A DNA stretch of 53,375 nt. Source: a virus. Location: positions 1-53,375 of IMG/VR virus record IMGVR_UViG_3300036816_000028, one strand, 5' to 3'. A program made the position numbers and the translations under genes. The stretch's first letter is position 1. Every line of letters starts with the position of its first letter. The notes under the pieces were generated by a model. That model saw only the letters and a program-made list of their open reading frames with translations. It had not been told where the DNA came from and ran no database searches. Of the stretch, positions 13,687 to 37,283 are shown piece by piece.

Positions 13687-14109
13687 TCAGTCGGGGACGC
13701 GGTCGAAGGACAGGCGCCCGTACGACTCCGACAGGTGCACACGGTAGCTCCCGGGTTCCGGCAGCCGGGTGGAGCGGTGGAGGGCCAGGTTGTGGACCGC
13801 ACAGTCCTCCAGCGCTCCGTCCAGGCGCTCCTTCAGCGGGTGCCGGATCGTGAAGGAGTAGTCCCGGTGCACGGTCATCACGTGCTCCGTCTCCCCGTCG
13901 TCCAGAAGACGGTCAACGGCCGTCGGGTCCGGACACTCCAGGTGCCCGCAGGTGATGTGTCCGCCCGCACCGGTCATCAGCGACGTCCGGCCGCACGCCG
14001 GGCAGTGCCCCTGAAGGTGGTTCGTCTCCGGGCTCACCAGCCGGACCAGCTCCTCCCGGACGACGGCACGGACCCGGGCTTCCTGCGTCCCGTTCCAGTC
14101 CACGTTCAT
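13687..14109 (-). CDS. zinc-binding hypothetical protein
   Basis: 140 residues. A zinc-ribbon-like motif HCPACGRTSL...HITCGHLECPDP spans about 34-61, and the rest is a small alpha/beta fold (VHRDYSFTIRHPLKERLDG, YRVHLSES). It resembles small Streptomyces proteins seen in phages and hosts, possibly the DUF6085 group. The ATG overlaps the MazG-like stop in an ATGA junction. Confidence 0.6.
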   Translation of the reverse strand: MNVDWNGTQEARVRAVVREELVRLVSPETNHLQGHCPACGRTSLMTGAGGHITCGHLECPDPTAVDRLLDDGETEHVMTVHRDYSFTIRHPLKERLDGALEDCAVHNLALHRSTRLPEPGSYRVHLSESYGRLSFDRVPD

Positions 14110-14411
14110 GATTCCTCTTTCCTGATCATCGCTCCGTGACCGTTCTTCTCGTACACGCGGCCCACGTTCTTGGCCAGCTTCTTCAGGACTTCGTCCTCCA
14201 GGTCGATCCCGTTCATCTGGGCCACGGAGACCAGGTACAGGAGAACGTCGGCCAGCTCCTCCCCGAAGTCCGGCAGACCCTTCCGCCAGGCGGTGAACGC
14301 CTCTCCGACCTCAGCGGTCAGGAGACCGAACTCCAGAGCGGTGTCCGTGGTGTTGAATCCCTTGGCCCGTTTGTTGATCCAGGCCATCCGCTGAGCATCA
14401 CTGATCTTCAC
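14106..14411 (-). CDS. MazG-like nucleotide pyrophosphohydrolase
   Basis: 101 residues, the usual length of a single MazG domain. The helical metal-binding pattern GLLTAEVGEAFTAW and FGEELADVLLYLVSVA carries the paired E-x-x-E/E-x-x-D acids. MazG enzymes hydrolyse NTPs, and in phages may lower (p)ppGpp or damaged nucleotides. It is coupled to the helicase by a GTGA overlap. Confidence 0.8.
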   Translation of the reverse strand: MKISDAQRMAWINKRAKGFNTTDTALEFGLLTAEVGEAFTAWRKGLPDFGEELADVLLYLVSVAQMNGIDLEDEVLKKLAKNVGRVYEKNGHGAMIRKEES

Positions 14412-16138
14412 CGCTTGCGCTCCTTGACCACGTGGTCGAAGACGCGCGTGGCGGCCTTGACCGCCATGGCGTCGGACAGGTCCCCCTGGCGCAGGTCGTG
14501 GATGTCGGTCGGAACCCCCATCGACTTCGCCCGGGAGATCATCCGCGGCTCCGCGCGCTTGCGGCGCCACGACGCCTGGCGCTCGATCCCGAAGGAGCTG
14601 TAGTTGTCGGCTTCCGTCTCCGCCCAGGCTTGCGCCAGGCCCAGGGTCAGTCCTTCGTGGAGCACGACCCAGCGGGCGGTCCCGTGGGACCTCTCCGGCG
14701 CTCCGCCGACGTTCCACAGACCGTCGGCACGCGGCCACAGAAAGACGAAGCCTCCGCTGACGGAGAGGAACTGGACCCCGCCGGGTGTACGGAGCCACAC
14801 GTGGCTGGACGCGGTGAACAGGTCCAGTTCCTTGTGTTTCAGGAGGAAGGCCGTGTTCCCGGAGTGGGACTCCACCCGGTTGGCGGTCTCCTCCTGCCGG
14901 ATGTACGCCTCCGCCAGGGACTCCCCGTCCCGGACCGCGGTCGTGACCGAGTCGTCCAGGTCCACCAGAGTGGAGATCTTCCCGCCGGTGCCCGCGATGT
15001 CCAGGACCAGGGCGTCCGTCTTGCCCGACCACGGGCGCAGCACGCGGCCCACCATCTGGATGAACAGCGGCGCGGACTGGGTCGGCCGTGCGATGACCGC
15101 GCAGTCGGCCATGGGGAAGTCCGCGCCTTCGGTGAGGACCATGCAGTTTACCAGGACGGAGATGCGTCCGGTCCGGAAGTCGTCGTAGACCGACAGGCGG
15201 CCGGGGATCGTGCGGCCCAGGGAGTCGGTGGTGTCCTCCCGCTTCACGCCCGCGGAGACCGCAGCGGCGGTGTAGCCGCGCTGTTCCAGTTCCTTGACCG
15301 TCTCCTCCGCGACAGCCACCGTCGGCGTGAAAACGATGGTCCGGCGCCCCGGCGCGTAGCGGTGGACCACCTCCGCGATCTGAGCGGGGCCGCCCGCCTG
15401 AAGCAGGGCCTCTCCAAGGGCGCCCGCCTGGTAGTCCCCGGCGGTGCGCTTGACCCCGCCCAGATCCAGGCCGTCCAGCTTGACCTCCTGGCCCTTCGGG
15501 TCCACCAGGTAGCCGCGGGAGATCATCCACAGAACCGACCGGTTGTACACCATGTCATCCCAGACACCGCCCAGGCCGACCCCGTCCCCGCGGGCCAGGG
15601 TCGCGGTGAAGCCGACGGCTTTCGTCCCGGTCCAGACGTCCTCCTTGTTGACCAGGCCGGAGTAGCACCCCAGCGCGGCCATGACGTTCCGGTAGCTCAC
15701 GGCTGCCGCGTGGTGGCATTCGTCCACGATCACCAGGCCGACCGGTCCGGCCACCTCCTGGGCATCCAGGAGGCGCTGAGTCCGGTTGGCGCGGGCCAGG
15801 GTCTGCACGGAGCAGACCATGACGTCGGCGTACACCTGGTCGTCGGCCGCCTTCACCTTGCCGATGTCCAGGTCCGGAGCGGTCGCGCGGAGCTTGGCAA
15901 TCGCCTGGTCGGCCAGTTCGTCCCGGTGGACCAGGACGACGACCCGGCGCGGCTGGCCGGTGTAGCCGTGCACGTCGTGGAACTGCCGGGCCATGGCCGC
16001 GAAGATCACGGTCTTCCCGGCGCCGGTGGGCAGAACGACCGCCGGACGCTGCATGCCGGTGTTCCAGGCGTTCCAGACCGCATCCACGGTCTCCGTCTGG
16101 TAGTCCCGGAGCGTCAGCTCCGTTGCCGCGGCCCTCAT
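14408..16138 (-). CDS. SF2 DEAD/DEAH-box helicase
   Basis: 576 residues. Motif I LPTGAGKT (about 35-42), motif II DECHH (about 137), motif III-like FTATL and motif VI QMVGRVLRPW (about 364) define a superfamily 2 ATPase of the RecG/UvrB-like DEAD box class. The 150-residue C-terminal extension is not recognised. The ATG at 16138 lies 5 nt after GGAGGGG. It probably unwinds DNA or remodels forks together with the nuclease downstream. Confidence 0.85.
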   Translation of the reverse strand: MRAAATELTLRDYQTETVDAVWNAWNTGMQRPAVVLPTGAGKTVIFAAMARQFHDVHGYTGQPRRVVVLVHRDELADQAIAKLRATAPDLDIGKVKAADDQVYADVMVCSVQTLARANRTQRLLDAQEVAGPVGLVIVDECHHAAAVSYRNVMAALGCYSGLVNKEDVWTGTKAVGFTATLARGDGVGLGGVWDDMVYNRSVLWMISRGYLVDPKGQEVKLDGLDLGGVKRTAGDYQAGALGEALLQAGGPAQIAEVVHRYAPGRRTIVFTPTVAVAEETVKELEQRGYTAAAVSAGVKREDTTDSLGRTIPGRLSVYDDFRTGRISVLVNCMVLTEGADFPMADCAVIARPTQSAPLFIQMVGRVLRPWSGKTDALVLDIAGTGGKISTLVDLDDSVTTAVRDGESLAEAYIRQEETANRVESHSGNTAFLLKHKELDLFTASSHVWLRTPGGVQFLSVSGGFVFLWPRADGLWNVGGAPERSHGTARWVVLHEGLTLGLAQAWAETEADNYSSFGIERQASWRRKRAEPRMISRAKSMGVPTDIHDLRQGDLSDAMAVKAATRVFDHVVKERKR

Positions 16139-16344
16139 CGTGTCCCCTCCAGATACTCCGTCAGCGCGTCGCACTGGGCGGGAGTCATGTTCTCCTGACC
16201 GAAGATCGAGATGGCCGTGATGATGACGTCGTCATCGTCCACCCCGTCGAAGACTCCCGTCAGGTGGTGGTCCATCCCCTCTTCGAAGATGAGGGCCGCC
16301 ACCCGGACGACGAAGGCGGCCTCCGCGCGGTTCACCGGTCCCAT
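16135..16344 (-). CDS. small acidic hypothetical protein
   Basis: 69 residues, mostly helical, with an acidic patch VDDDDVIITAISIFG. ATG at 16344 has AAGGAG 5 nt upstream; a GTG at 16335 overlapping the upstream stop is an alternative. Function unknown. Confidence 0.55.
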   Translation of the reverse strand: MGPVNRAEAAFVVRVAALIFEEGMDHHLTGVFDGVDDDDVIITAISIFGQENMTPAQCDALTEYLEGTR

Positions 16345-18780: not shown

Positions 18781-19254
18781 ATGACGATCAAGGCCATTGA
18801 AACGGCCTACGGCGGATGCCGGTTCAGGTCCCGTCTGGAAGCCAGGTGGGCGGTCTTCTTCGACGCCCAGCACTGGACGTGGACCTACGAACCGCAGGGC
18901 TTCACGCTGCCGTCGGGGAACTACCTGCCGGACTTCCAGGTGGCGCCGTACGGTGGGGACCCGGTCTGGTTCGAGGTGAAGGCGCCGGGTGTGCCGGACG
19001 ACGCGCGGTGGCCGGAGCTGGCCGCCGCTACCGGCGTCCTGATCATCGTGGCGAAGGGCATGCACCGGACCGGAGACGACTGTATGACGGCGCACAGCGC
19101 CGACGTGTACGCGCCCGGGGGTGCGGGCCACGGGCTGAAGCTGTGGATGAACGCCCCGCGGTCGGCCTGGGACGCTGCCTCCGGCGCACGGTTCGAGCAC
19201 GGGGAGTCCGGAGCAGCCGGACGCCGCTCCGGGCGCGGACGGAGGCGTCGGTGA
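18781..19254 (+). CDS. PD-(D/E)XK-type nuclease
   Basis: 157 residues. The motif order is GGCRFRSRLEARWAVF, then YLPDFQV (Asp near residue 58) and WFEVKAPG (E-x-K near residue 70). It looks like a small replication-associated endonuclease. The basic tail (GRRSGRGRRRR) may bind DNA. GAGGAAGAGAG precedes the ATG. It directly precedes the primase-polymerase frame, with a GTGA overlap. Confidence 0.7.
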   Translation: MTIKAIETAYGGCRFRSRLEARWAVFFDAQHWTWTYEPQGFTLPSGNYLPDFQVAPYGGDPVWFEVKAPGVPDDARWPELAAATGVLIIVAKGMHRTGDDCMTAHSADVYAPGGAGHGLKLWMNAPRSAWDAASGARFEHGESGAAGRRSGRGRRRR

Positions 19255-22200
19255 CCGCGGAGGCGGTGGAGTCCACCGCTGCCGGGCGGCCGACCGACCA
19301 GGAGGCGTCCCCGCTGAGCCTGGCCCACCAGGCGGAGCTGGAGGCGTCCTGCGTCGGTGAGGAGCACATCGCGGCGCGCGGCTACCGCACGCTGTACGGG
19401 TCGGACGAAGACCGCACGGAGCTTCGGGACCTGCGCATCCCCCGTTGGATGTGGCGGGAGCCCACCGCATTCCCGGGTCTGCTCATCCCGGAGTACCGGG
19501 CCACCGGGGAGCTGATCGGCTACCAGTGGAAGCCGGGTCAGCCGCAGCGCAACCCGGAGGGCAAGCCGGTCAAGTACGCCAGTGCGACCGGGGCGCCCAA
19601 CCACATGGACATCCCGCCCCTGGTGGCGGACAAGGTCCGTGACCCGAAACACTCGCTGTGGATCACCGAAGGCGTGAAGAAGGCCGACTCCCTGGCGACG
19701 CTCGGGAAGGCCGTCGTCACGCTGACCGGCGTCTTCAACTGGCGGTCCAAGCTGGGCACGCTGGGCGACTGGGAGGACATCCCGCTGAAGGGCCGGACCA
19801 TCGTGGTCTGCTTCGACGCGGACGCCCGGGAGAAGCGCACGGTTCTCCTGGCCATGGTCCGGCTGGGCCGCTGGCTGACGTCCAAGGGTGCGGCCGACGT
19901 CCGGTACCTGATCGTCCCGGCAGAGGTGGAGCAGGAGGAGGGCGCGCCCGTCGCGGTGAAGGGCGTGGACGACTACTTCCGAGCTGGGGGGACGCTCGAA
20001 GAGCTGGGCGCGTTCGCCACCCGGGAGGAGCCGGGCGGGGGCGGCGCCCAGGACGCCAGCTTCAGTGACGCCGTGATGGCCGACACCGTGTGCGGTGAGG
20101 CGCTGGAGGGGGTCTTCCGCTGGTCCGCAGGACTGGGGTGGATGACCTGGACCGGGAAGGTCTGGCGGAAGGCCACGGACGCCACCGTGACCGAAGCGGT
20201 ACGTCTGTGGGCGCTGGCCCAGTTCGAACGGGTGCTGGAGCGCCAGCGGGACGACCCGAACCGGGACCTGCGGGCCCAGATCGACGGCTGGCGGAGCGCC
20301 CTGGGAAAGGCCAAGCTGAACGCCCTGGTGGCGTTGTCCCGGGGCATCCTGGAAAGCGATCCGGGGGACTTCGACGCCGACCCGGACGCGATCAACTGCC
20401 CGAACGGCATCGTGGACCTGCGAACGGGCTTGATCGTCCCGCACGACCCGGACCGACTGATGACGAAGATCACCGGCGTGGACTACGTCAAGGACGCGGA
20501 GAGCACCGACTGGCTGAAAGCGCTGGAGGCGTTGCCGGAGGGCGTGCGGGACTGGTTCCAACTCCGCATCGGCCAGGCCGTCACCGGCCATCTGACGCCC
20601 GACGACCTGGCCGTCATCTGCCAGGGCGGAGGGGAGAACGGGAAGTCCACAGTCTTCAATGCGCTCCTGGTGGCCACCGGGCTGTATCACATCATGGTGG
20701 CGGACCGGGCCATGTTGGGGAACGCCAGCGACAACCACCCCACGGAGATGATGGACTTCCGCGGCGCGCGGCTGGCGATGCTGGAGGAGACGCCGGAGGA
20801 GCGGCACCTGGACACCAACCGGCTGAAGAAGCTGGTGGGCACCCGGGAGATCACCGCCCGCGGGATGCGCCAGGACGACGTGACGTTCGAGACGACGCAC
20901 TCCCTGTTCGTGAACACGAACTTCGAACCGCAGGTCAACGAGACGGACCACGGGACCTGGCGCCGTCTGGCGCTCCTGAAATTCCCGTACACCTATCGCA
21001 AGCCCCATGAGCCCCTGATGGGCCCGAACGACCGGCGGGCGGACCCGACGCTCCGGCAGCGGGTGGAGACCCCCGCGGTGATGGAGGCGGCCCTGGCCTG
21101 GGCGGTGGAGGGCGCTCAGCGCTGGTACGCGGCCGACCGCATCATGCCGGGCCTGCCGGACCAGGTCGTTGCCGACACGATGGAGTGGCGCCAGAAGTCG
21201 GACCCGATCCTGAAGTTCGCGAACGAGAACCTGGAGTTCGACCGGGAGAGCCACATCACCGGCGCGGAGCTGACCGACGCGTTCATGTCCTTCCTGGAGT
21301 CGGAGCGGTCGAAGCCGTGGTCCGCGAAGACCTTCGTCAGCCGCTTCGGTGGTCACGATCTGTGTTCACGGAACGGGGTCGCATACAAGTTGATCAAGGC
21401 GCGGGCGGGCCGTTCGACGCGGAAGCCGAACCTGTCCGTATCGGCGTCCTACAAGGCGTGGCTGGGGGTGCGCTTCACCACCCCGGACGACACCGATCCG
21501 TCTCAGGATGTGGGATTTTCCCCGGAATCCCCGAACGAAGATCCTTTCGGGGATTTTAAGAACCCGCAGGTGGAAGGGGGTGTTCAAGATCAGGTAACCC
21601 CAGTAACCTCACCGCCGGTTAAGCGCCCTAGTACGCGAGAAACGCAGCTTAACCGGCGTAGAGGTTACTCAGGTTACCGAAACGATGTCGTTTCGATAAA
21701 TGAAGATCATCAGGAAGAAGAAATGTCCGAAATGAGCGAATCCACGGAGCCCGTGTTCTTCGACCTGGAGGGCGCGAACGCCGACGAACTGTTCACCTAC
21801 AGTGATGACGGAGGGTCACCGCCGGTCGGCTTCGTCCGGCTGGCCGGTGCCGCCGTCGGAGAGGGTGAGATCCGCACCGGTGTGCCGGTGGAGAAGCTGG
21901 TCCGGATGCTGGAGGAGCGGCCGTCGGCGGGCCACAACATCCTGGGCTTCGACGGCCTGGCGCTGGCCTTCCACCACGGCATGGACTGGGAGAAGTTCTG
22001 CGCCGGTGCGGTGGACACGGAGATCAACGCCCGGCTGGACGACCCCCCGCGGTCCAAGGAGACCGGTGGGAGTGAGGACCGGTACGACCTGGACCACATC
22101 GCCGCGAAGCTGGGGGTGGGTGGGAAGACCGACTCCGCCAAGCGGCTGAAGGACAAGTTCGGCGGGTACGACCGCATCCCCGTGGACGACCCGGAGTACC

Positions 22201-23489
22201 ACGCGTACCTGAAGGGCGACGTGGCCGCCACCCGGTCGGTGGCCGGTCGGCTGCCGATGACGGAGTACGGCCAGCGGGAGCACCTTCTGGCGTCCCTGGC
22301 GGGACGGATGACGCTCAACGGCTGCCGGGTGGACGTCGCGCTCCTGCGGAAGCGCCTGAAGGACGGCCAGGCACGCAAGCGGGCGGCCATGGAGGAGCTG
22401 GCGGACGGCCAGGGTCTTCCGCTGGGGCGCACCGTCATGCGCGGCCGGGGTGCGGCGAAGGCGCCGGTGTTCGAGCCCTTCAGCTCCCCTTTCAACACCA
22501 CGGAGGGGAAGGAGTGGCTGGCGGACCTATGGCAGCGCTTCGGGGTGGTCCGGCCGCCGGTGACCGACAGCGGGGCCCTGTCCACCGCCGCGGAGCGGCT
22601 GAAGGCTGTGGCGGACAACCCGCGGTGCCCGGCGGAGCTGAAGCACGTCCTGGAGCTGATGGAGGTCATCACCACCACCAGGACCGTCTACCAGACCGCT
22701 GCCACGTACATGACCGCCGAAGGCCGGGTGCACCCCATGGTCTCCATGCGCCAGGCGTCGGGCCGGTGGTCGCTGACGAAGCCGGGCCTGACCGTCTTCG
22801 GGAAGCGCGGCGGGCGCCACGTGGAGCGGGAGATCATCATTCCGGAGCGGGGCCATGTGGTCATCACCTGCGACCTGGCACAGGTGGACATGCGCGGGGT
22901 GGCGGGCCACTGCCAGGACCCGGCGTACATGGAGCTGTTTCAGCCCGGCAAGGACATCCACCAGGAGATCGCGGACATGCTGGGCATCGCCCGGCAGGAC
23001 GCGAAAGCGTTCGGCCACGGGTACAACTACGGGCTCTCACTGAACGGCGCGGTCCGCCGCGGTGCGGACCTGGAGCTGGCAAAGGTCTTCTACCAGGGCA
23101 TGGTCACCCAGTTCCCGGTCAAGGAGGAGTGGACGAAGAAGATCCAGTCCATGGGGGCCCACGGGGACCTCCTGGACAACGGCTTCGGGCGCAAGATGCG
23201 CTGCGACCCGGAGAGCGCCTTCACCGTCGCGCCCGCGCTGATGGGCCAGGGCAGTGCCCGGGACATCACCATGGAGGTCCTGATCCGGCTCATGACGGCG
23301 CACCCGGAGTACCGGCCGTTCCTGCGGATCTACGTCCACGACGAATTCGTCTTCTCCGTTCCGGAGGCCATGGCGGAGGAGGTCGGAGCGGAGATCGAGA
23401 AGGCGTTCACCTGGGAGTGGCGCGGCGTGCCGATTCTTTGTGATCGCACTGCACCCGCGGAGAGCTGGGGTGCGGCCAGTGCGAAGTGA
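19251..23489 (+). CDS. primase/SF3 helicase-family A DNA polymerase fusion
   Basis: One uninterrupted frame of 1412 codons. N-terminal half: TOPRIM-like WITEGVKK (about 137) and VVCFDADAR (about 186); SF3 helicase Walker A GGGENGKST (about 460) and MLEETPEER (about 510). C-terminal half: exonuclease motifs FFDLEG (836), HNILGFD and YLKGDVAAT (986); polymerase motif A CDLAQVDMR (1204), motif B RQDAKAFGHGYNYG (1248) and motif C VHDEF (1361). All proofreading and polymerase residues are present. GTG at 19251 lies 5 nt after GGAGG. Residues about 744-826 are a low-complexity linker. An in-frame ATG at 21723 after AGGAAGAAGAA could give a separate polymerase. Confidence 0.85.
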   Translation: MTAEAVESTAAGRPTDQEASPLSLAHQAELEASCVGEEHIAARGYRTLYGSDEDRTELRDLRIPRWMWREPTAFPGLLIPEYRATGELIGYQWKPGQPQRNPEGKPVKYASATGAPNHMDIPPLVADKVRDPKHSLWITEGVKKADSLATLGKAVVTLTGVFNWRSKLGTLGDWEDIPLKGRTIVVCFDADAREKRTVLLAMVRLGRWLTSKGAADVRYLIVPAEVEQEEGAPVAVKGVDDYFRAGGTLEELGAFATREEPGGGGAQDASFSDAVMADTVCGEALEGVFRWSAGLGWMTWTGKVWRKATDATVTEAVRLWALAQFERVLERQRDDPNRDLRAQIDGWRSALGKAKLNALVALSRGILESDPGDFDADPDAINCPNGIVDLRTGLIVPHDPDRLMTKITGVDYVKDAESTDWLKALEALPEGVRDWFQLRIGQAVTGHLTPDDLAVICQGGGENGKSTVFNALLVATGLYHIMVADRAMLGNASDNHPTEMMDFRGARLAMLEETPEERHLDTNRLKKLVGTREITARGMRQDDVTFETTHSLFVNTNFEPQVNETDHGTWRRLALLKFPYTYRKPHEPLMGPNDRRADPTLRQRVETPAVMEAALAWAVEGAQRWYAADRIMPGLPDQVVADTMEWRQKSDPILKFANENLEFDRESHITGAELTDAFMSFLESERSKPWSAKTFVSRFGGHDLCSRNGVAYKLIKARAGRSTRKPNLSVSASYKAWLGVRFTTPDDTDPSQDVGFSPESPNEDPFGDFKNPQVEGGVQDQVTPVTSPPVKRPSTRETQLNRRRGYSGYRNDVVSINEDHQEEEMSEMSESTEPVFFDLEGANADELFTYSDDGGSPPVGFVRLAGAAVGEGEIRTGVPVEKLVRMLEERPSAGHNILGFDGLALAFHHGMDWEKFCAGAVDTEINARLDDPPRSKETGGSEDRYDLDHIAAKLGVGGKTDSAKRLKDKFGGYDRIPVDDPEYHAYLKGDVAATRSVAGRLPMTEYGQREHLLASLAGRMTLNGCRVDVALLRKRLKDGQARKRAAMEELADGQGLPLGRTVMRGRGAAKAPVFEPFSSPFNTTEGKEWLADLWQRFGVVRPPVTDSGALSTAAERLKAVADNPRCPAELKHVLELMEVITTTRTVYQTAATYMTAEGRVHPMVSMRQASGRWSLTKPGLTVFGKRGGRHVEREIIIPERGHVVITCDLAQVDMRGVAGHCQDPAYMELFQPGKDIHQEIADMLGIARQDAKAFGHGYNYGLSLNGAVRRGADLELAKVFYQGMVTQFPVKEEWTKKIQSMGAHGDLLDNGFGRKMRCDPESAFTVAPALMGQGSARDITMEVLIRLMTAHPEYRPFLRIYVHDEFVFSVPEAMAEEVGAEIEKAFTWEWRGVPILCDRTAPAESWGAASAK
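21526..21555. repeat. 10-bp-arm dyad in the linker
   Basis: AATCCCCGAA (21526-21535) and TTCGGGGATT (21546-21555) pair perfectly over a 10-nt loop, inside the primase-polymerase linker. Confidence 0.7.
21593..21678. repeat. 32-bp-arm inverted repeat, origin-like
   Basis: Left arm 21593-21624 and right arm 21647-21678 match at 28 of 32 positions, around a 22-nt centre. All three matching blocks share one axis at 21635.5. Each arm contains two GTAACC-type units 9 bp apart. The arms are rich in A/T compared with flanking DNA. Located in coding sequence. Confidence 0.8.
21678..21695. repeat. 8-bp-arm palindrome CGAAACGA-TG-TCGTTTCG
   Basis: Perfect 18-bp dyad abutting the large inverted repeat; ideal size and symmetry for a dimeric DNA-binding protein. 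It lies 28 bases before a possible internal start at 21723. Confidence 0.7.
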
Positions 23490-32227: not shown

Positions 32228-34057
32228 ATGCCGTGGTACAACGCCCTGGGCTTCGGCCGCCGACCGGCGCCGCCGGACGTCCCGGCTTCCCTGACCGCGG
32301 CGGCTGCGCCCGTCAAGGGCCCGCAGTCCCAGTTCCTCCAGCACACCCAGAACTGGCAGAACGAAGCCTGGGACTTCTACGACGCCAACGGGGAGTACAA
32401 CTACGGCGTCACCTGGCTGGCCAACATGATGTCCCAGGTCCGACTCCGCGCCGCCCGGTTGGACCCGGAACTGGACGAACCGGAGATCCTGAACGACGGC
32501 GCAGCCGCGGAGATCATCGCCAAGATGAACGGCGGTGTGGGCGGCCAGTCCCAGATGATGCGGTCGCTGTCCACCCAGCTCTCTGTTCCCGGTGACTGCT
32601 ACCTGATCGGGGAGCAGACGGGCCCGGCGGAGAAGTGGACCGTTCGGTCCGTGGACGAAGTCCGGGCGCAGTCTGGCCGCTTCCAGGTCGTGACCGGGCG
32701 TACGCCCAGCGTGGAGTGGTCCGACCTCCCGCCGGACTCGATTCCGGTACGGATCTGGCGTCCGCATGAGCGTTGGCACCACATCGCCGACAGCCCGTCC
32801 CGCTCCGCCCTGTCCACCATGCGGGAACTGGAACTGGTCAACCGGCACATCACCGCCCAATACCTGTCCCGGCTGGCGTCGGCCGGTGTGCTGATCCTGC
32901 CGGAAGAGGTGACCTTCCCGGTGCGGGAGGAGTTCGAAGACGCTCCGGACCCGTTCGTGGCGGAGTGGGTGGAGGTGGCGCGGGAAGGCATCGCCAACCC
33001 GGGCACGGCGTCCGCCGTTGTTCCGATCCCGATCCGTGTCCCCGGTGAGTACGTGGACAAGATCAAACACCTGGACTTCACGCTCAAGATCGATGACAAG
33101 ATCATCGAAAAGCGGGACAGCGCGATCAACCGCCTGGCCACCCAGATGGACATCCCGACCGAAGTCCTGACCGGCATGGGCAAGGTCAACCACTGGACCG
33201 CCTGGCAACTGGACGAAGGCAGCCTGAAGACGCACATTGCGCCGCTGGCGGAGGTCATCTGCTACTCCCTGACCACCGGGTACTTCCAGGCGCGGCTGGC
33301 CGCCTCCAACGTGCCAGACCCGGAACAGTACGTGGTTTGGTACGACATGTCCGAACTGGCCATCCGGCCGGACAACAGCACTAACGCTCAGGCCGCCTAC
33401 GACCGTCTGGAGATCTCTGGGTCCGCGCTGCGTCGTGAGACCGGCTTCGGTGAGGACGACGCTCCGACCACCCAGGAGCTGGAGGCCATGACCCAGAAGG
33501 CCATCTTGCGCGAGGCTCCGGCGTCCCCGATGGCTGCGGTGGCGGCCGACGCCCTGGCCGGGAAGCATGTCTTCGCCGATGCCATGGGCGGGACCGCGGC
33601 ATCCGGCACCGGCGGGGAGGTGGGCACCAAGCAACCCGCGGAGTCGTCCGACGACGGAGCACCGCCGGGGCCGCCGTCCACGTCTCCGCCGTCCCAGGCC
33701 GCACCGAAGGACACGCCTCCGTCCACATCCCCGCCCGGCGCGGAGCGTGCGTCGGCCGCGGTGATCCGCGCGTCCGCCCAGGCGTCCGCCGTCCACGTGC
33801 TGCGCTACTCCGTGGACGCCGTACCGCAGCTTCTGCATCCACCGGGTGTGTGCTCCACGCACGCGTATTCCTGCCCGTTCACACACAGTGCCTGGGGCCG
33901 CTGGCTTCCGTCTCTGACCACCGGGACCTACGAAGTCCGCCTGGACGCCTTCGGACAGCTCCGGGTGGGCCGTTTCGCGCCGGAAATGGACACGTTGGGC
34001 TGGATCACCACCACAACGGCGGTGGGTCGGAAGGGGACCAACTATGCCCGCGCATGA
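32228..34057 (+). CDS. portal protein
   Basis: 609 residues, the usual portal size. Between terminase and the MuF/protease gene. NEAWDFYDANGEYNYGVTWL (about 43-62), RLRAARLDPELDE, WRPHERWHHIADSP and the long helix region with PTEVLTGMGKVNHWTAWQLDE (about 317-337, split across the core) match actinophage portals. It forms the dodecameric DNA entry ring at one capsid vertex. The C-terminal ~140 residues are Pro/Ala/Ser-rich with an unrecognised Cys/His end. ATG follows GGGAGGC. Confidence 0.82.
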   Translation: MPWYNALGFGRRPAPPDVPASLTAAAAPVKGPQSQFLQHTQNWQNEAWDFYDANGEYNYGVTWLANMMSQVRLRAARLDPELDEPEILNDGAAAEIIAKMNGGVGGQSQMMRSLSTQLSVPGDCYLIGEQTGPAEKWTVRSVDEVRAQSGRFQVVTGRTPSVEWSDLPPDSIPVRIWRPHERWHHIADSPSRSALSTMRELELVNRHITAQYLSRLASAGVLILPEEVTFPVREEFEDAPDPFVAEWVEVAREGIANPGTASAVVPIPIRVPGEYVDKIKHLDFTLKIDDKIIEKRDSAINRLATQMDIPTEVLTGMGKVNHWTAWQLDEGSLKTHIAPLAEVICYSLTTGYFQARLAASNVPDPEQYVVWYDMSELAIRPDNSTNAQAAYDRLEISGSALRRETGFGEDDAPTTQELEAMTQKAILREAPASPMAAVAADALAGKHVFADAMGGTAASGTGGEVGTKQPAESSDDGAPPGPPSTSPPSQAAPKDTPPSTSPPGAERASAAVIRASAQASAVHVLRYSVDAVPQLLHPPGVCSTHAYSCPFTHSAWGRWLPSLTTGTYEVRLDAFGQLRVGRFAPEMDTLGWITTTTAVGRKGTNYARA

Positions 34058-37000
34058 TCATTTCACGGGCGCGCATAACGCGATCACCGCGGACGCGTCC
34101 AGCGACCACCTGAGTGGCTGCATGGTCGCGCTCATGCCGACCGAACAGGACGCCGCACGGATGGCCGTGGACGGCGGGGAGGCAGCGGCGGACCTCCATC
34201 TGACGCTGGCCTACCTGGGCCCCGACGCGAACGCCTGGGACGACGCCGCGCGGACGGAGCTGACCGGCTTCCTGCGCTCCGTCATCCAGTCCTCCGAATT
34301 CGGCTCCTGGAACAGCTTCACTGCGAAGGTCTTCGGGGCCGCACACTGGAACGGTGACGGAGACAGCCCGGCCTGGGTGTGGAGCGTCGGTGACCAGCCG
34401 GACGACGACTCCATGGACCACGACGGGGACGCCCTGGAGGACTACCACGACCTGGTGTTCGACGCGCTGGAATCCGGCCACGACCACCCGGATCTCCCGG
34501 CGCCGCACAGCCCGTGGGTGGCGCACATCTGCGCCGCCTACAGCGCGGACGACGCGTTCCTTCCGCTCCTGGAGGCCAAGCTGGGGACGGTCACCTTTGA
34601 CCGCCTCCGGCTGTCGTTCGGGGACGACGACACGGACATCCCGCTGAACACCGATGTGGCCATGTCCGGCCCGTTGACGGCCGCCGGGATGCGCCGCAAG
34701 CCCAAGGGGTTCGAGAGTGCGTCCACTGTGGACTTCGCGCTCATGGACAGCTCCTGGAAGGCCGCGGTGGACCGGGCCTACGTAGCCTGGATGGCCATCC
34801 TGTCCGCTCAGCGCCAGGAGCTGACCGACCAGGTGAAGGCTGCTGTGGACGGCGGGGACTTCGCCGACCTGGCCGCTATGACCGTCTCCACCGCGGCGGC
34901 TGTGGACCTCCTGTCAGAGCACATGGCGCGCTTCGCCCAGACCGCCGGTCAGCAACAGGAGCACGAAGCAGACCGACAGGGCGTGGCCGTCCCGCCCTGG
35001 GCGCTGACCGACGACGACCCGGAAGGCGTGACCGCTTCCCTGTCGTCGGCCGCGAAGTCCTTCCTGTCCCGCATGCGCGCGTACGCCTCCGTCGTCGCCT
35101 CCAGCCTGGCCAACCGAATGGTGTCCTCCGCGTCCCAGCGCTCCATCACGCTGGCGGAGGCGGACGCCGACGGCGCGGCGGTCGCGCGGGACGTGGAGAC
35201 CTACCTGGCCGACCACCCGAAGGCGTATGTCCGGCAGGGCATCGCGGCGGCCATGACCATGGCTCAGAACACGGGCCGTCTGGCGGTGCTCACCGCGGCG
35301 CCGCCGGGGAGCTACTACGCCTCCGAAATGCTGGACTCGAACACCTGCGGGCCGTGCCGCGCGATCGACGGTAAGGAATTCGCCACGCTCAACGCGGCGG
35401 AGGATGCGTACCCCGCCGGGGGCTACGTGGACTGTGCGGGCGGATCAGCCTGCCGGGGAACCATGGTCACCGTCTGGGACGCCGGACAGACCGCCAGTGC
35501 GACACCGAAGGAGGGCATCGTGGCGGAAACCGAAGACCTGGGCGGGAAGCCGAACCCGGGCACGAAGAAGGACAAGCGGCTGAAGGAGAACGACCAGGGC
35601 AAGGCGAAGGCCGTCGGCGACGCCGACCACTTCGCCGCTGGCGCGTCCGTGTCGGACAAGCCCTGGGACGGCGCCGCCAGCCGCTTCAACGACGACCAGT
35701 GGAAGCGCGCCACCGCGGCCTGTGACGGGGACGGAACACCCAAGGAGGCGTGCTTCCTGCCTCACCACGAACCGGACGGCACGCTGAACCGGAACGGCCT
35801 GCACGCGGCGGCACAGCGCGTCGGCTCCGTCACCGGCCGCTCCCCGGCGGCTGTCGCGCACGCGAAGTCCCACCTGCGCAACCACTACAGCCAGATCGGG
35901 GAGGATGCTCCGGACTCGATCGCGGCCACCCTGGGCGACGCCGTGGAAATGGCACTGGCCCCGGCCGACCCGGACGCCGTCATGCCCGCTTCCGACAGCA
36001 ACACTGCACCCTGGCGCGGACCGCTGGCCGTGGAGGGGAAGACCACCGGCGACGGTCGGGAGTTCGCCGCGGGGTCTCTGACCTGGCGTGACCTCCCGGT
36101 GCCGCTGCGCTGGAACAAGGAGGACTCCCACGGAGGTGAAGCCCACACCGTGGCCGTCAACGTCGGCCGGATTGACAAGATCTGGCGTGAGGGTGACCTG
36201 GTCATGGGGGAGGGCGTCTTCAACCTGGCGGAGGCCGACGGCCAGCGCGCGCACGACCTGGTGAAGGGCCAGTTCCTGCGCGGTGTCTCGATCGACGCCG
36301 ACTCCATTTCCGACAAGGACGTGGAGTACGTCTGGCCGGACGTCGGACCGGAGGACGGCGACGGGGAGGACATGGACATCCTGGATCTCCTCTTCGCCCA
36401 GCCGGAGAAGGTGCTGTTCCACGCCGGGCGGATCAGCGCGGCCACCCTGTGCGACATCCCCGCCTTCGCGGAGGCGTATGTGGCGCTCCTGGATAGTGAA
36501 GGCGCGGTGACCGCGGGCGGGACCCCGGCCGGAGCACAGGGCGGGGGAGGCTACGCGGTGCGCGGCGTGCGGGCGCGGACCGTGGACGGCCTGACGGCGG
36601 CCATCAGCGCGCCGGACTGGAAGCCGCCCGCGGAGTGGTTCGCGAACCCCCAGCTCTCCCTTCCGACCGGCATCCAGGTCACGGACGACGGCCGTGTCTA
36701 CGGCCATGCGGCCACCTGGGGCTCCTGTCACATCGGTCAGGCCGACGTGTGCGTCCAGCCGCCGCGGGAAGAGAACCACCCGTACTACATGACCGGAGAG
36801 GTGGTCACGGCTGACGGAGGGCGCGTCTCGGTCGGCCAGATCACCGTGGGCACCGGCCACGCGCCGCTGTCGATGGGCGCCGTTCCGGCGACCGAGCACT
36901 ACGACCACACCGGCCACGCAGTCGCGGACGTCCACGTCGGAAACGATGAACACGGGATCTGGGTGGCGGGCGCCATCCGGCCGGGCGCACCGGCGGACCT

Positions 37001-37283
37001 GGTCCACGCCCTGCGCGCGGCGGGCCAGGTGTCCGGAGACTGGCGCCGGATCGGCTCCGCGCTGCGCTTGGTCGGTCTCCTGGCCGTCAACGTCCCCGGT
37101 TTCCCGGTGCCGAAGATGGCCACGCGGGTGACTGCGTCGGCTGCCGGGTCCGAAGTCCAGACCGCACTGGTGGCCGCCGGGCGCCCGCCGGTCGCGCACG
37201 GCACCACGGAGAAGGAGCTGATCCAGGCGTCCTTCCGGACGGTCATGGACGCGCTGTCCCGCGGTGTCCACAGCGAGAGCTGA
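34044..37283 (+). CDS. 2H phosphoesterase-MuF-capsid protease fusion
   Basis: 1079 residues in one frame. Residues 20-210: 2H phosphoesterase pattern with DLHLTLAYLG (about 50) and VAHICAAYS (about 157). Residues about 240-480: MuF-like minor head domain ending in the zinc-like motif DSNTCGPCRAIDG...SACRGTM. Residues about 650-815: prohead protease-like domain (FAAGSLTWRDLPVPLRW, FLRGVSIDAD). Residues about 862-1025: the actinophage protease C-terminal domain (DGRVYGHAATWGSCHIG...LSMGAVPATEHYDHTG). Links head assembly, possible RNA/nucleotide processing and capsid maturation. GGAAGGGG precedes the ATG, which overlaps the portal by 14 nt. Confidence 0.75.
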   Translation: MPAHDHFTGAHNAITADASSDHLSGCMVALMPTEQDAARMAVDGGEAAADLHLTLAYLGPDANAWDDAARTELTGFLRSVIQSSEFGSWNSFTAKVFGAAHWNGDGDSPAWVWSVGDQPDDDSMDHDGDALEDYHDLVFDALESGHDHPDLPAPHSPWVAHICAAYSADDAFLPLLEAKLGTVTFDRLRLSFGDDDTDIPLNTDVAMSGPLTAAGMRRKPKGFESASTVDFALMDSSWKAAVDRAYVAWMAILSAQRQELTDQVKAAVDGGDFADLAAMTVSTAAAVDLLSEHMARFAQTAGQQQEHEADRQGVAVPPWALTDDDPEGVTASLSSAAKSFLSRMRAYASVVASSLANRMVSSASQRSITLAEADADGAAVARDVETYLADHPKAYVRQGIAAAMTMAQNTGRLAVLTAAPPGSYYASEMLDSNTCGPCRAIDGKEFATLNAAEDAYPAGGYVDCAGGSACRGTMVTVWDAGQTASATPKEGIVAETEDLGGKPNPGTKKDKRLKENDQGKAKAVGDADHFAAGASVSDKPWDGAASRFNDDQWKRATAACDGDGTPKEACFLPHHEPDGTLNRNGLHAAAQRVGSVTGRSPAAVAHAKSHLRNHYSQIGEDAPDSIAATLGDAVEMALAPADPDAVMPASDSNTAPWRGPLAVEGKTTGDGREFAAGSLTWRDLPVPLRWNKEDSHGGEAHTVAVNVGRIDKIWREGDLVMGEGVFNLAEADGQRAHDLVKGQFLRGVSIDADSISDKDVEYVWPDVGPEDGDGEDMDILDLLFAQPEKVLFHAGRISAATLCDIPAFAEAYVALLDSEGAVTAGGTPAGAQGGGGYAVRGVRARTVDGLTAAISAPDWKPPAEWFANPQLSLPTGIQVTDDGRVYGHAATWGSCHIGQADVCVQPPREENHPYYMTGEVVTADGGRVSVGQITVGTGHAPLSMGAVPATEHYDHTGHAVADVHVGNDEHGIWVAGAIRPGAPADLVHALRAAGQVSGDWRRIGSALRLVGLLAVNVPGFPVPKMATRVTASAAGSEVQTALVAAGRPPVAHGTTEKELIQASFRTVMDALSRGVHSES

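Follow-up and report, generated by a model that had tools for sequence, protein, structure and literature searches.

A primase-helicase-exonuclease-polymerase fusion conserved in actinobacterial phage-plasmids, with an origin-like repeat element in its coding linker

How much of a replication fork can a virus place in one protein, and can the gene for that protein also hold the site where replication starts? These questions are raised by the IMG/VR virus record IMGVR_UViG_3300036816_000028, analysed over its whole length of 53,375 bp (the window), in which a frame from GTG at 19251 to TGA at 23489 is free of stops and encodes a predicted protein of 1412 amino acids (aa) and 156.0 kDa. A preliminary description of this DNA had proposed that the frame, there given a product of 155 kDa, unites a TOPRIM-like primase, an SF3 helicase, a proofreading exonuclease and a family A DNA polymerase; the single 1412-codon frame was confirmed, and only the computed mass is slightly different. 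The best overall explanation appears to be a single multifunctional replicase with an iteron-type origin, belonging to a phage-plasmid family, and we give this reading, which is built on sequence, a probability of about 0.7.

Relatives were gathered by scanning IMG/VR twice and genome contigs once, and are mostly 40-73% identical. Both halves of the protein lie in one frame in 41 fetched loci, which together with the window make 39 distinct fused proteins; a two-gene state was found in eight close relatives and in five cultured phages that are more distant. At least four changes of state are needed to account for the fusion on the helicase tree, and it has therefore been gained or lost repeatedly. 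The full fusion occurs in one of the 150 Streptomyces genomes searched. A fusion of this family is carried by pS1D4-14.2, a finished 98.8-kb plasmid of the cultured Streptomyces sp. S1D4-14; this replicon, a phage-plasmid, also has capsid, portal, terminase, ParA, ParB and integrase genes. RefSeq annotates the pS1D4-14.2 fusion as a single coding sequence of 4341 bp (NZ_CP041606.1 26749-31089, locus L078; WP_181360814.1). Taken together, these comparisons indicate that the fusion is a genuine conserved gene of an actinobacterial phage-plasmid family. The RefSeq name of WP_181360814.1 is 'phage/plasmid primase, P4 family', with no mention of the polymerase half.

The enzymatic content of the frame was examined region by region. 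Pfam places DUF3854 at residues 131-245, above cut-off, and the AlphaFold model of residues 20-262 has a predicted local distance difference test (pLDDT) score of 90, its best structure matches being DnaG of Bacillus subtilis, Staphylococcus aureus, Mycobacterium tuberculosis and Escherichia coli, T7 gp4 and T4 gp61 (best E 5.9e-6; Z 13-15). By this model the region is a full DnaG-type RNA-polymerase core and a predicted primase, which goes beyond the TOPRIM-like domain first proposed. The N-terminal zinc-binding domain is absent, with no Pfam zinc-ribbon match and a primase core that begins at residue 20. The SF3 helicase was borne out by D5_N (289-425) and DUF5906 (458-572), both above the Pfam cut-off, by the NCBIfam family TIGR01613 (P4-family primase C-terminus; 152.5 bits, the cut-off being 108.7), and by fold and profile matches to AsfvPrimPol, poxvirus D5/E5 and the SaPI5 primase-helicase. 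Because the helicase core is weak in the AlphaFold model of residues 1-760 (mean pLDDT 66), that model was used for the fold-level match alone. The next region, residues 601-742, is the most divergent part and shows a weak match to Pox_D5 (Pfam, E 0.08). In the C-terminal half, a PHROG 17 match spans residues 823-1407, and the PDB matches of the polymerase half include the Taq, Klenow and PREX polymerases; the motifs and the DNA_pol_A match uphold the proofreading exonuclease and family A polymerase in the same frame.

The catalytic motifs, all of which had been claimed to be present, are conserved over the 42 fused sequences in which they were scored (truncated rows excepted). The helicase has Walker A and B, the sensor asparagine and the arginine finger, and the polymerase half has motifs A, B and C together with three exonuclease motifs. 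Invariant residues are E140, D189 and D191 of TOPRIM; G464 and K465 (Walker A), E512/E513, N555 and R571 of the helicase; D838/E840, D901 and Y986/D990 of the exonuclease; and D1208, K1252, Y1260 and H1363-D1364-E1365 of the polymerase, while N896 of the exonuclease is kept in 40 of the 42. That one protein would amount to nearly a complete replisome, in the words of the preliminary description, is a prediction; no genes for a single-stranded DNA-binding protein, a clamp or a ligase were found in the window, in a scan that did not take in every small open reading frame.

One relative (L015:33-5762) has an insert of about 350 aa near residues 550-910, with LAGLIDADG and homing-endonuclease matches. 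The insert splits the helicase exactly at Walker A (GGGSNGK/ST) and ends in HN-S, and by its sequence it looks like an intein; locus L014 holds part of it.

The two halves of the replicase are joined by a linker that is rich in Pro, Ala and Glu and poorly conserved across relatives, with a length of 44-159 aa and a third-position guanine-plus-cytosine (GC) content of about 0.55-0.7. It could be argued that the polymerase is (also) made separately from ATG 21723, so that helicase and polymerase would be two products and the frame would be open by chance. Such a start is preceded at five bases by AGGAAG, the low third-position GC of the linker is what would be expected of an old intergenic stretch, and locus L012 and others keep two genes. 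However, the frame through the linker is open in the fused sequences, 41 loci besides the window, and, with a single exception among the 42, stops interrupt at least one of the other frames. Substitution in the linker is also coding-like, with 0.43-0.44 of changes at third codon positions, against 0.33 expected of non-coding DNA and 0.51-0.53 in the domains, these figures coming from sequence pairs that are not independent. In seven relatives (L005, L007, L013, L016, L023, L044 and L063) ATG, GTG and TTG are all missing from the linker, and therefore a separate polymerase cannot be the rule of the family; an internal start was rejected as a conserved trait of the family. For this one virus, the start at 21723 raised by the preliminary description is plausible, and we regard separate production as an unlikely explanation.

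An equally doubtful alternative is a polyprotein cut in the linker into a primase-helicase and a polymerase, in the manner of Plasmodium PREX, which is cleaved after import (PMC9631997). The composition, poor conservation and variable length of the linker would suit this proposal. On the other hand, the linker sequence is shaped by DNA repeats: its three-residue peptide repeats (in the window VTPVTS...GYSGYR, in relatives VPPVPS...GTGGTG) arise because the DNA there holds 9-bp direct and inverted repeats. The linker has no conserved cleavage motif, and a dedicated protease was not identified. It seems rather likely that the replicase works uncleaved.

The repeats in the linker belong to an element with a constant layout, in which two 9-bp direct repeats are followed by an AT-richer centre of about 50 bp and then by the same two repeats inverted. 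The window element scores 29, whereas 60 shuffles reached at most 23, and it is the sole match scoring at least 26 across the whole window, where no further copy of the repeat pair was found beyond chance. The same layout is present in 53 of the 56 loci scanned, once per locus, with a span of 79-89 bp. Scores beat all 60 shuffles in nearly all loci with the element near the helicase end, and in about 0.85 Mb of the same DNA just one match that reached a score of 27 fell outside the region of the replication gene. The unit is almost wholly different between genomes (38 distinct 9-mers among 55 elements), and its four copies are alike within a genome. Identity within genomes is 95% for the inverted arms and 86% for the tandem copies, values that were partly selected for since period 9 was chosen after the first examples, compared with 61% between genomes. 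The GC content of the centre is 0.51 versus 0.68, being lower in 54 of the 55 elements; neither this nor the position and span of the element was selected for by the choice of period. On their outer sides the repeats are often bordered by a further motif, CAAGATC(A) / GATCTTG, which occurs partly as inverted pairs (L003, L010, L012 and window 21584-21592).

The position of the element across relatives shows to which part of the gene it belongs. It starts 7-37 bp past the helicase stop in 11 two-gene or polymerase-less loci, lies inside the linker in 29 fused loci, and is found just upstream of the gene in seven fused loci that form a clade with short linkers. In four small Streptomyces plasmids, and in another Streptomyces genome, the element again comes just after the homologous helicase gene. 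These four plasmids have a primase-polymerase gene and no family A polymerase in the stretch read, and the element is therefore tied to the helicase and not to the fusion. Studies of SaPI Rep helicases, which are of the same Primase_Cterm/D5 class, have shown that they bind iterons directly downstream of their own gene through a C-terminal domain (PMC7581432), and in the Streptomyces plasmid pWTY27 RepA binds an inverted iteron region of 105 bp within the replication locus (PMC3583192). A SaPI/P4-type initiator is expected to have iteron-like repeats next to its helicase gene or directly downstream of it, and such repeats were found here. Because this helicase-linked placement matches the iterons of SaPI Rep and pWTY27 RepA, a replication origin is the best reading of the element, and by this analogy we consider it quite probable; residues 601-742 would then be a candidate origin-binding domain.

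Several observations weigh against this reading. The relation between the repeat sequence and the domain of residues 601-742 is weak (partial rank correlation 0.25), and the cumulative GC skew of the window turns near 16-18 kb, away from the element. The upstream position of the element in seven fused loci means that the fusion and the position of the origin are not bound together. Moreover, the distant two-gene phages phiSASD1, TG1, Samy, Adumb2043 and Quenya have no such element when periods 7-13 are scanned, and it is therefore not universal for D5 helicases.

The upstream position in those seven loci would suit an operator, and pS1D4-14.2 has ParA and ParB genes, so that the element might instead bind another protein, as an operator, a partition site or a recombination site. 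We find this improbable, given that in phages, in plasmids and at a chromosomal locus the element comes after the helicase gene, in one copy per locus and with an AT-richer centre. The inverted repeat might also act in the replicase mRNA as a hairpin (attenuator, pausing signal or terminator), since the RNA of the window element folds into one long stem of -55.9 kcal/mol. As the whole explanation this has little in its favour: each arm is itself a tandem repeat, at the 86% identity given above, which a hairpin does not need, and the element is upstream of the gene in some relatives and between genes in others. A hairpin role may exist in addition to that of an origin. Finally, an assembly or frameshift artefact, conceivable for a record of an uncultivated virus, is ruled out by the 41 other one-frame loci and by the finished plasmid pS1D4-14.2 of a cultured Streptomyces.

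If the element is an origin and the replicase a single protein, the P4/SaPI-type SF3 helicase part would recognise the iterons, assemble as hexamers and open the origin, the DnaG-type N-terminal part would make primers, and the tethered exonuclease-polymerase would extend them. The ancestral order was likely a primase-helicase gene, the origin and a polA gene, and loss of the intervening stop likely made the origin coding, to be translated now as the linker. We lean towards a translated origin of this kind, in which the linker DNA of one initiator-primase-helicase-exonuclease-polymerase gene would hold the origin that its own protein recognises, a fast-diversifying 9-bp unit within a fixed layout of 79-89 bp giving each replicon its own specificity.

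The features of the locus are collected in Table 1. The replicase frame is already open from 18816, and the stop of the preceding gene overlaps its GTG start (19251) in the shared letters GTGA; the alignment of relatives begins at about residue 15-22. This overlap suggests that the two genes are likely translationally coupled. Terminase, portal, major head and tape-measure genes lie downstream of the replicase. On the opposite strand, the window has an SF2 DNA helicase gene (14408-16174, minus strand; PHROG 16), and pS1D4-14.2 has a DEAD/DEAH helicase at a similar relative place. The C-terminal part of a frame at 14106-15530 (minus strand) matches the MazG nucleotide pyrophosphohydrolase, and a 1079-aa open reading frame at 34044-37283 shows an odd pairing of RNA ligase families at its N-terminus with head maturation protease/portal families beyond.

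Table 1. Coordinates of the replicase gene, its predicted domains and the origin-like element in the window.
Feature	Position	Strand	Remarks
Upstream gene	18781..19254	+	PHROG 21138, function unassigned; GTGA overlap with replicase start
Fused replicase gene	19251..23489	+	1412 aa, 156 kDa
DnaG-type primase core (RNA-polymerase/TOPRIM domain, DUF3854), residues 20-262, predicted	19308..20036	+	Pfam, AlphaFold, structure matches
D5_N and SF3 (P4-type) helicase, residues 289-572	20115..20966	+	Pfam, TIGR01613, fold/profile matches
Helical domain with beta hairpin after helicase, residues 601-742	21051..21476	+	Secondary structure in moderate-confidence model
Linker joining helicase and polymerase halves	21477..21755	+	Third-position GC 0.54 versus 0.92-0.93 either side
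Origin-like element, 32-nt inverted arms 21593-21624 and 21647-21678	21593..21678	.	Arms 88% complementary
Left pair of 9-bp repeats, GTAACCCCA GTAACCTCA	21594..21611	+	
Right pair of 9-bp repeats, inverted	21660..21677	-	
Possible internal start, ATG 21723	21712..21725	+	AGGAAG five bases before; 588-aa, 64.5-kDa polymerase; not conserved
3'-5' proofreading exonuclease, about residues 836-1000	21756..22250	+	Motifs D838xE840, N896-D901, Y986-D990
Family A DNA polymerase, residues 1081-1399	22491..23447	+	Pfam DNA_pol_A 1e-26, above cut-off

If true, most of the enzymes of the fork, combined in a single 156-kDa protein and accompanied by the origin, would make a compact and self-contained replicon. 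Such a replicon would allow the coupling of priming, unwinding and synthesis to be studied, and might serve as a tool in DNA amplification. Natural controls for asking why replication genes fuse are provided by relatives with one gene or two, in which the element lies within, behind or ahead of the gene, and a changing 9-mer in a fixed layout provides a clear test of co-evolution between initiator and origin.

One-protein replicases are already known, namely GP55, PREX and the Pyrovirus polyproteins. What is new here is the DnaG-SF3-exo-PolA version with a translated origin-like linker; neither this combination nor an origin-like element in a coding linker was found described in the open-access papers searched. 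The helicase of PREX is T7 gp4/Twinkle-like, unlike the SF3 helicase of the window. Plasmodium PREX resembles the window replicase in having a primase, a helicase and a family A polymerase in one frame, and differs in being organellar, in its cleavage after import and in having no reported origin in its linker (PMC9631997). For GP55 of the lactococcal phage 1706, a one-protein replicase, all four activities have been shown; it combines an archaeo-eukaryotic primase (AEP) with a family B polymerase, whereas the window has a DnaG-type primase, an SF3 helicase and a family A polymerase (PMC12205980). The 1606-aa Pol polyprotein of Pyrovirus OS3173 joins a helicase/primase-like region to exo-PolA, and is fused in some relatives and separate in others, as in the window family (PMC7689252). 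Its helicase region is of the DUF927 type, it comes from hyperthermophilic viruses of Aquificae, and no origin-like element has been reported in its linker (PMC7689252); DUF927 is absent from the window replicase by Pfam, which gives D5_N and DUF5906 instead.

A further fusion was found in the Actinoplanes phage phiAsp2 (NC_005885; L022:1535-5782), where Pas55, deposited as a putative DNA polymerase, is a single coding sequence of 1415 aa with DUF3854, a P-loop region and a family A polymerase. Pas55 has no D5_N or DUF5906 match and no period-9 element, and only its polymerase half aligns with the window replicase; by its domains it looks like a second type of primase-ATPase-polymerase fusion that has gone unnoticed in a cultured phage. 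With regard to the origin, the self-loading helicases SaPI5 Rep and Cch2 share the D5_N/Primase_Cterm SF3 type with the window, and the SaPI iteron origin lies directly downstream of the gene; unlike the window replicase, these proteins include no polymerase, the primases of SaPIs belong to the AEP family and not to the DnaG type, and the origin is non-coding (PMC7581432). At the pWTY27 locus, inverted tandem repeats of about 105 bp beside the rep genes are bound by RepA and replication is bidirectional; the units there are of 8 bp, and the primase/polymerase RepB is a separate protein (PMC3583192).
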